Of a DNA stretch of 64,000 nucleotides, positions 29,596-33,017 are shown one piece after another. Positions within the stretch are counted from its first letter, which is position 1. The number at the start of each line of letters is the position of its first letter. The DNA is from Halopelagius inordinatus. GTDB taxonomy: Archaea > Halobacteriota > Halobacteria > Halobacteriales > Haloferacaceae. The translations under genes were made by a program, and so were the position numbers. Below the pieces are notes generated by a model that did not search any database, had not been told where the DNA came from, and was given only the letters and a program-made list of their open reading frames with translations. The stretch spans positions 496,001 to 560,000 of the forward strand of contig NZ_FOOQ01000002.1 in the NCBI RefSeq assembly GCF_900113245.1, written 5' to 3'.

Positions 29596-29943
29596 ATGAA
29601 CGGCGCAATCACCGGCGTGGAGGGCGAACTCCGGAGCAACGGAATCAGCGTCGAGTCGCTGGACACGGGCGAAGAGAGGGTCGAACTCGTCTATCTGACC
29701 GCGTTTCCCGGCGAGAGCGTGAACCACACCGAAATCGGACGCGCCCTCAGGACGTTCGTCGGGCGAGTGGAAGCCGACCAGTGGGAGCCGAAACGGGTCG
29801 ACGCCACCGTCCTCCGCGCCGAGGGCGACGTCCAGGGGACGTGGCGCGCCGAAGCCGACTGGTTCCGGAAGTACGACCGGTACGAACTGAGCGACGAGGA
29901 CTTCTCGGAACTCGTGTTGAACACGCTGGAGGGAGACGAATGA
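29596..29943 (+). CDS. Hypothetical acidic protein
   Basis: A 115-residue acidic protein with no domain I recognise. It reads as strands then helices: RVELVYLTAFPGESVNHTEI, RALRTFVGRVEADQW and DWFRKYDRYELSDEDFSELV. TATA-like CGTTTAG at about 29565-29571 lies some 25 nt before the ATG. It overlaps the next gene by 4 nt, so the two are translationally coupled. Confidence 0.75.
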   Translation: MNGAITGVEGELRSNGISVESLDTGEERVELVYLTAFPGESVNHTEIGRALRTFVGRVEADQWEPKRVDATVLRAEGDVQGTWRAEADWFRKYDRYELSDEDFSELVLNTLEGDE

Positions 29944-30947
29944 GCCGACCCACCTGCCGCGGCGACTGGAAGCGCGCAGAGCGACGAGAGCGAGTCAGAG
30001 ACGGAACGACGGAGAAAACGTCGGAGCGAGCGTCGAGTCGGCGACGCCACCCGTCGAGATACGAGTTCTCGAAGGTGACGATGGGCTTCGAGAGCGCCGG
30101 AGAGCGCTGTACGGGGTGGCTCTACCGCCCCGACCGTCCGGCCGACCCGCCGGTCGTCGTCATGGCGGGCGGCATCGCCTCCGAACGGTCGTTCGGACTC
30201 CCGGCGTACGCGGAGCGACTGGCCGAGGCGGGCTACGCCGTCTTCCTGTTCGACTACCGGAACCACGGCGACAGCGAGGGGGAACCGAGAAACCTCGTCT
30301 CCCCGTCGCGGCAGCGAACCGACTGGGAGGCGGCCATCGCGGGCGTCAGGGAGAGAGACGGCCTCGACACCGGGCGACTCGTCCTCTGGGGGACCGAACT
30401 CGGCGGCGGACACGCCTTAGACGTGGCCGCGGACGACGCCCGCGTCCGAGCGGTCGTCGCACAGACGCCCGTCCTCTCGGGGCGGTCGCTCCTGACCGCG
30501 AACGGCTACGGATACCTCGCGAAAGGCGTCCTCGCGGGCGTCCGCGACAGAGTCCAGTCGCTCGTCGCCGGGCCGCACACCGTCTCCGTGACGGGCGACC
30601 CCGAGGAGTCGGCGTTGCTCTCGACGCCCGGCGCGCGGGCGGGCTACCTCGATTTGGTCCCCCCGACCTCCGAGTGGGAGAACCGACTGCCCGCCCGGTC
30701 GCTGCTCTCTCTCGCGACGTTCTCGGCCGGCGACGACGCCGAATCCATCGCCTGTCCGGTCATGTTCGTCGCCGGAACCCGAGACGATATCGTCCCCGCC
30801 GCGTCCGTCGAGTCGGCGGCGGACTCCGTGTCGAACGCGACGTTCGTTCGCTTGCCCGCGTCCCACTTCGATTTCTACGAGGGCGCGCAGTTGGCGCAGG
30901 CCGTCGGTCACGGCGTCGCCTTCCTCGACGGCGTCCTCGACTCTTGA
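29940..30947 (+). CDS. Alpha/beta hydrolase with Glu at nucleophile elbow
   Basis: A 335-residue protein. A basic N-terminal extension of about 45 residues precedes an alpha/beta-hydrolase fold: oxyanion-loop region VVVMAGGIASERSFGLP, FDYRNHGDSEGEPRN, and the acid and base regions GTRDDIVPA (D282/D283) and ASHFDFYEG (H309). The nucleophile elbow reads LWGTELGGGH, so the expected catalytic Ser (GxSxG) is Glu153. It may be inactive, use another chemistry, or bind rather than cleave. ATG 29940 overlaps the preceding stop. Confidence 0.85.
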   Translation: MSRPTCRGDWKRAERRERVRDGTTEKTSERASSRRRHPSRYEFSKVTMGFESAGERCTGWLYRPDRPADPPVVVMAGGIASERSFGLPAYAERLAEAGYAVFLFDYRNHGDSEGEPRNLVSPSRQRTDWEAAIAGVRERDGLDTGRLVLWGTELGGGHALDVAADDARVRAVVAQTPVLSGRSLLTANGYGYLAKGVLAGVRDRVQSLVAGPHTVSVTGDPEESALLSTPGARAGYLDLVPPTSEWENRLPARSLLSLATFSAGDDAESIACPVMFVAGTRDDIVPAASVESAADSVSNATFVRLPASHFDFYEGAQLAQAVGHGVAFLDGVLDS

Positions 30948-31576: not shown

Positions 31577-31679
31577 GCGTCCGAAGCGGACCCCGGCGGC
31601 GGTTTCGACGCCCTCCGTTGTCTCGGCGGATTCGGACGCGTGCGTGACCTTCTTGACCGCGGGGCGCGACCCTCAACCG

Positions 31680-33017
31680 ATGACCGCGACGCGAACTGTC
31701 GAACTCGAAGGCCACATCATCGACTCGGGGATGATGCAACGAGCCTTCGGTATCGTGATGGACCTCGATGGGTCGTTCGAAGTCGAGGAGTTCGATGTGG
31801 GAAAGCACAAAGACAAGACGTCGTACTGTCGGATGTCGATAAGCGCCGACACGCAGGAGACGTTGCAGGAGATTCTCCACGAACTGCACCAAAACGGGGC
31901 GAACCTCACCGACCCGGTGGACGCGCACGTCGAACCCGCGCCCGCCGACAGAGTCGTCCCGCACGGCTTTTACTCCACGACCAACCACCCCACGGAGGTC
32001 CGATACGACGGCGAGTGGATCGGCGTCGAGAACATCGAGATGGACTGCGCGATAGTTCTCGAACCCGACCCGGACGGGAGAGAGGAACCGCGAGCGTACA
32101 CGAAGGTGCTGAACGGTATCGAGGAGGGTGACCTCGTCGTCACGGACGAGGCGGGCATCCGCGTGCAACCGCCCGAACGCCCCCGCGACTCCTCGGGTCC
32201 GTTCGGCTTCATGCAGGGCGGCGTCTCCTCCGAGCGACCCTCCGAATCGCTCATCGAACAGGTCGCAGAGGCCATAGAGGAGACGAAAGCCGAGGGCGGG
32301 AAGGTGTTAGTCGTCGCCGGCCCGGCACTCGTCCACTCGGGCGGGGCGTTGGACCTCGCGCGCCTCATCCGCGAGGGGTACGTCGACATGCTTTCGGCGG
32401 GCAACGGCTTCGCCACCCACGACATCGAACACGGCCTCTACGGCACCTCTCTGGGCATGGACATGGAGACGATGGAACACCCCCGGAAGGGCCACAAACA
32501 CCACATCTACACGATAAGCGAGGTCATCCGCGCCGGGGGCATCGCGGAGGCCGTAGACGAGGGACTCGTCGAAGAGGGCGTGATGTACGAGTGCGTCGAA
32601 AACGACGTGCCGTACGTCCTCGCGGGGTCGATTCGCGACGACGGTCCCCTCCCCGACACCATCACCGACGCGGTGGAGGCGCAAAACGCCATCCGCGAAC
32701 AGGCCCACGAGGCCGACATGGTGTTGATGCTTTCGACTCTGCTTCACTCCGTCGCCGTCGGCAACTGCCTCCCGTCGGACGTCCGCGTCGTCTGCGTGGA
32801 CATAAACCCCGCGACGGTGACGCAACTTCTCGACCGAGGGAGTTCCCAAGCCATCGGCATGGTGACCGACATCGGCACGTTCGTCCCGACGCTGGCGGAC
32901 AAGATTCTCGGTCCCGCGGCGGAGGGCGAGACGGACGGCGACGGCTACTACGAGACCGACGGCGGTGCCGATGACGACTCCGACCACGGCGGCGGACACC
33001 CCTGCGGCGGGAACTGA
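31680..33017 (+). CDS. Ornithine cyclodeaminase (nickel-pincer type, TIGR00300)
   Basis: A 445-residue archaeal enzyme of the TIGR00300/LOR-SDH-domain family. A Methanococcus member was shown to be an ornithine cyclodeaminase (ornithine to proline plus ammonia) dependent on nickel-pincer nucleotide. Family markers: the N-terminus ELEGHIIDSGMMQRAFGIVM, then KVLVVAGPALVHSGGALDLA, LSAGNGFATHDIEHGLYGTS and HPRKGHKHHIYTISEVIRAG. The C-terminal tail is acidic and ends HGGGHPCGGN, rich in possible metal ligands. The cofactor assignment is family knowledge, not visible in sequence. A larC gene lies at 62343-63722. Confidence 0.82.
   Translation: MTATRTVELEGHIIDSGMMQRAFGIVMDLDGSFEVEEFDVGKHKDKTSYCRMSISADTQETLQEILHELHQNGANLTDPVDAHVEPAPADRVVPHGFYSTTNHPTEVRYDGEWIGVENIEMDCAIVLEPDPDGREEPRAYTKVLNGIEEGDLVVTDEAGIRVQPPERPRDSSGPFGFMQGGVSSERPSESLIEQVAEAIEETKAEGGKVLVVAGPALVHSGGALDLARLIREGYVDMLSAGNGFATHDIEHGLYGTSLGMDMETMEHPRKGHKHHIYTISEVIRAGGIAEAVDEGLVEEGVMYECVENDVPYVLAGSIRDDGPLPDTITDAVEAQNAIREQAHEADMVLMLSTLLHSVAVGNCLPSDVRVVCVDINPATVTQLLDRGSSQAIGMVTDIGTFVPTLADKILGPAAEGETDGDGYYETDGGADDDSDHGGGHPCGGN

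Follow-up and report, generated by a model that had tools for sequence, protein, structure and literature searches.

Protein families are usually either catalytic or pseudoenzymes. Within the alpha/beta-hydrolase fold, some described proteins dispense with the nucleophilic serine: in carboxy-lyases of this fold a D/E-H dyad does the work without Ser, CGI-58 is a Ser-less protein of the same fold (PMC11878206), and VdtD, a fungal stereochemistry-directing protein, has Asp at the nucleophile position and was judged non-hydrolytic (PMC6600887). Our literature search turned up no pertinent report of a Glu nucleophile in this fold, nor of the haloarchaeal family considered here, a member of which lies in a 64,000-nucleotide stretch of the Halopelagius inordinatus genome (the window). 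The features of this locus are as follows.

29596 to 29943, forward strand: gene for a 115-residue protein, a conserved partner that matches nothing in Pfam or NCBIfam; the stop of this gene overlaps the ATG of the hydrolase gene (ATGA)
29940 to 30947, forward strand: gene for a 335-residue alpha/beta-hydrolase-fold protein with Glu at the nucleophile position (reading frame, Pfam, AlphaFold2 model)
30168 to 30173, forward strand: G77-G78, in the oxyanion-hole loop that follows beta3; relatives have His, Pro, Asn or Gly at position 77, and 99-100% of Ser orthologues have G78
30390 to 30410, forward strand: nucleophile elbow G151-T-E153-L-G-G-G157 (reading frame, alignment, model)
30396 to 30398, forward strand: E153, codon GAA; the sister species L002 and each of the six sequences of the genus g25 have GAC (Asp) here
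30477 to 30479, forward strand: S180, just after beta6; Asp in 96-97% of Ser orthologues (alignment, model)
30720 to 30728, forward strand: F261-S262-A263; nearly invariant Y-R-P in Ser orthologues (alignment)
30783 to 30785, forward strand: D282, triad acid after beta7; Asp in 192 of 196 aligned homologues (and model)
30864 to 30866, forward strand: H309, triad base after beta8; His in 192 of 196 aligned homologues (and model)

The protein encoded at 29940-30947 on the forward strand, whose translation contains LVLWGTELGGGHALD, matches the Pfam profiles Abhydrolase_1/6, Hydrolase_4 and DLH above cut-off, and its elbow reads W-G-T-E-L-G-G-G-H. Since a GxSxG elbow needs Ser (or Cys) and Glu153 stands there instead, it is not a classical serine hydrolase. 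An AlphaFold2 model of residues 40-335, computed from an alignment of 95 sequences (pLDDT 96.5, pTM 0.94), places E153 (model residue 114) in the sharp turn exactly between the strand at 104-113 and the helix at 115-126, with D282 in the loop following the next-to-last strand (model residues 235-240) and H309 in the loop following the last (261-266). The core beta-sheet with its elbow, the acid after beta7, the His after beta8 and the Pfam clan profiles all assign the protein to the alpha/beta-hydrolase superfamily. Indeed, the sequence-only reading, which had pointed to a G-T-E-L-G-G elbow with Glu replacing Ser and to an intact triad Asp and His, is borne out by the reading frame, by Pfam and by the model; its proviso that the elbow might lie elsewhere in the fold falls away, since the model places it at the canonical strand/helix turn.

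The homologues compared here come from Haloferacaceae, in which the gene is present in 158 of 170 genomes at E <= 1e-30, and from the order, in which 131 of 392 genomes carry it; a scan of the named genomes with the hydrolase protein returned three loci only. Glu as a fixed, conserved nucleophile is ruled out by the 196 aligned homologues, in which site 153 is Ser in 138, Gly in 34, Asp in 22, Ala in one and Glu in one, the protein in the window. As a further ground for refutation, the sequence-only reading had named a prevalence of Ser among homologues with a misread in this genome, a case that is only partly relevant. Ser is in fact the majority residue, but the close relatives (seven sequences besides the window, from two genera) all carry Asp and none Ser. 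Because Asp, encoded by GAC, occupies the site both in the sister species, which is 86% identical over the core, and in every sequence of the nearest other genus (g25, two of them named Halogeometricum), Glu153 is a one-base, one-species D-to-E change inside an Asp clade. Ser codons at the site are nearly all TCN (136/138), from which GAC or GGC lies two changes away via Ala or another non-Ser residue. The mutational path may therefore have led from Ser through Ala or some other non-Ser intermediate to Asp or Gly; one orthologue, L014, has Ala at the site (codon GCG).

To place these residues in time, trees were built without site 153, using FastTree and, for 81 rows, IQ-TREE with a mixture model. 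Ser lies at the base, six changes between Ser and non-Ser are needed, and at least four of these are forced by starred (strongly supported) branches, so that Ser appears to have been lost about six times, to Gly, Asp or Ala. The Ser-less lineages comprise four with Gly (15 sequences of one large genus; 12 of g24; three of g11/g14; and L026, whose sister has Ser), one with Ala (L014) and one with Asp, namely the window/g25/g6 clade together with the g3 group. Within the window/g25/g6 clade, Asp is found in 17 of the 20 sequences other than the window, and three g6 members (L041 and L012/L065) have Gly. A single loss, with all Ser-less sequences in one clade, was rejected (p-AU 3e-67), as was a clade of the Asp/Glu rows alone in a test that omitted the Gly rows nested among them. 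A clade uniting the Asp core with the g3 Asp group is compatible with the data (p 0.51), and Asp at 153 may therefore have arisen once. Some genomes whose main copy has Gly carry an additional family copy with Ser, placed in the outgroup clade (L101 and L128, in G077 and G073).

Purifying selection is unchanged in lineages without Ser. Within Ser-less groups pairwise dN/dS (NG86) is 0.11-0.36, against 0.16-0.35 within Ser groups; between the window and its sister species it is 0.26. By these measures the gene is not decaying, with L145 (G134) an apparent exception: this divergent orthologue on a long branch has the elbow LCGVDLGCG and has lost the catalytic Asp region. Other active-site residues fared differently, as seen when 103 ingroup Ser orthologues were compared with 57 Ser-less ones. 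In the former, conservation is 99-100% for G78, N248 and P263 and 96-98% for D180, Y261 and R262; in the latter it is 42-60% for all six. D282 and H309, in contrast to these, are still 98% conserved in the Ser-less set, and the Asp-His pair persists in 56 of 57, so the family retains the dyad without Ser. In one Gly-bearing member, L068 (G107), the triad Asp has become Gly and the His Gln.

The subset of conserved residues lost differs between Ser-less lineages. For example, the protein in the window has S180, F261, S262 and A263 but retains G78 and N248, Gly lineages have Glu, Asp or Thr in place of the oxyanion G78, and L026, a recent loss, retains everything except Ser. Loss of Ser is suggestively linked in these alignments with erosion of other conserved sites; an independent-pairs test gave nearly all pairs in one direction, with four starred pairs and six in total, too few for significance. 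The group g27 keeps Ser though D180 and N248 are gone, and the link is therefore not absolute.

In 131 loci, whose elbows have Ser, Asp or Gly (33 of the 34 Gly-bearing loci among them), the 115-residue gene adjoins that of the hydrolase; in the loci examined it lies on the same strand just upstream. Its protein has ten invariant residues (Y33, T35, P38, E46, G48, R74, W83, W89, S104 and V107) and a model with pLDDT 91.7; Pfam, NCBIfam and fold searches for its function gave nothing significant. Downstream of the hydrolase, at 31644-33017, is an ArgZ-like LOR/SDH gene, an order retained in many Haloferacaceae loci (59 within the 1.5 kb examined).

On balance, we think it somewhat probable that this protein, which belongs to the Ser-less part of a haloarchaeal alpha/beta-hydrolase family with vertical inheritance and nearly always one copy per genome, has a task that is independent of a covalent nucleophile. 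An ancestral Ser-His-Asp hydrolase would have lost Ser, and with it probably its classical hydrolase activity, in the ancestry of this genus and its neighbours; site 153 would then have changed to Asp, and from there to Glu in this one species. The retained His309-Asp282 pair might act as a general acid/base or keep a ligand in place in the former active-site pocket; an acidic side chain at 153 would be tolerated or would tune that pocket. Co-expression with the 115-residue protein is probable, and a physical association with it possible. Against this reading, Asp and His could be retained for structural reasons, one Gly-bearing member lacks them both, and the co-erosion association involves few independent pairs. 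More tentatively, the gene pair may be essentially universal in haloarchaea with a function that never needed Ser, such that Ser was lost repeatedly to Gly, Ala, Asp and Glu while the Asp-His dyad carries some reaction.

The main rival to an Asp-His-using function is a pure pseudoenzyme, in which the fold has no role beyond scaffolding or binding, with the 115-residue protein as one possible partner, and neither Glu153 nor the rest of the pocket performs any chemistry. The sequence-only reading had likewise considered a non-enzymatic binder equally possible. Such a protein could accept Gly, Asp, Ala or Glu for Ser in different lineages under unchanged selection, as well as the replacements of the oxyanion Gly78, and the conserved operon partner and the precedents of VdtD, neuroligins and thyroglobulin agree with it. 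We nevertheless regard it as unlikely, given that nearly all Ser-less sequences keep the Asp-His pair although residues of comparable conservation have drifted.

Very improbable is an acidic covalent nucleophile, with Asp and then Glu taking over as in haloalkane dehalogenases and epoxide hydrolases. The acid-His-acid triad is in the correct topological places, and Asp prevails in the window/g25/g6 clade. In those enzymes, however, an Asp nucleophile would be fixed in the clade, and here it has given way to Gly in three g6 members and to Glu in the window; the HGxP oxyanion motif is replaced by MAGGIASER; and the titles of the top 50 PDB fold matches, of which 7qjm, DcsB, GrgF, PA2218 and YcjY are the nearest, include no dehalogenase or epoxide hydrolase, nor do the sequence matches listed. 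A GHDxGG elbow, typical of haloalkane dehalogenases and epoxide hydrolases, occurs in two other proteins of this genome (L202 and L207). Another hydrolase-fold gene of this genome, L209 (G000:C1:188659-189312), has Gly at its elbow (GAGLGG) and is possibly a further Ser-less member. The change from Asp to Gly within the Asp clade, the retention of Asp and His and the drift elsewhere therefore make a covalent Glu or Asp nucleophile unlikely, and the earlier, implied notion of an exceptional Glu nucleophile gives way to a single-species change from Asp, in a protein whose sister lineages have Gly or Ala and whose nearest solved structures are Ser/Cys hydrolases. Ongoing decay or a sequencing error, for which one could cite the restriction of Glu to one genome and the degenerate L145, is scarcely credible given the intact reading frame, the dN/dS against the sister species, the near-ubiquity of the gene in the family and a sister already Ser-less with Asp; a GAC-to-GAA misread, though conceivable, would still leave Asp at the site.

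Glu153 would thus be the tail of a longer story of repeated nucleophile loss in a conserved haloarchaeal gene, a recurrence invisible from any single sequence and the notable feature of the family. One orthologous gene has several independent losses within one archaeal family, Ser-bearing sister species serve as controls and selection is unchanged; it therefore amounts to a natural experiment in the loss or alteration of catalysis by hydrolase folds. A further lesson is that these haloarchaeal proteins should not be annotated as hydrolases.

Among known systems, the closest is alpha/beta-hydrolase '202' of Chloroflexus sp. MS-G (7qjm), a solved structure that is, over the entire length, both the best sequence match (E 9e-26) and the best fold match (TM 0.87, 31% identity), but whose elbow, GISLGG, has Ser in place of Glu. 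The next best folds, the DcsB thioesterase (7d78/7d79), GrgF (6lzh), PA2218 and YcjY (TM 0.81-0.88, about 20-22% identity), include aligned elbows with Ser (WGMSFGG in DcsB) and Cys (WGLCFGG in GrgF). The best NCBIfam profile is that of the UilS N-acyl-homoserine lactonase (NF047920, E 4e-33), and the score of 115.5 bits against a cut-off of 400 places our protein outside the UilS type. VdtD, a serine-hydrolase relative with Asp for Ser that was aligned with lipases, cholinesterases and neuroligins (PMC6600887), resembles this family in its elbow residue, and the D/E-H dyad carboxy-lyases and CGI-58, which also lack a catalytic Ser, belong to different families. Loss of the serine itself has precedents in all three.
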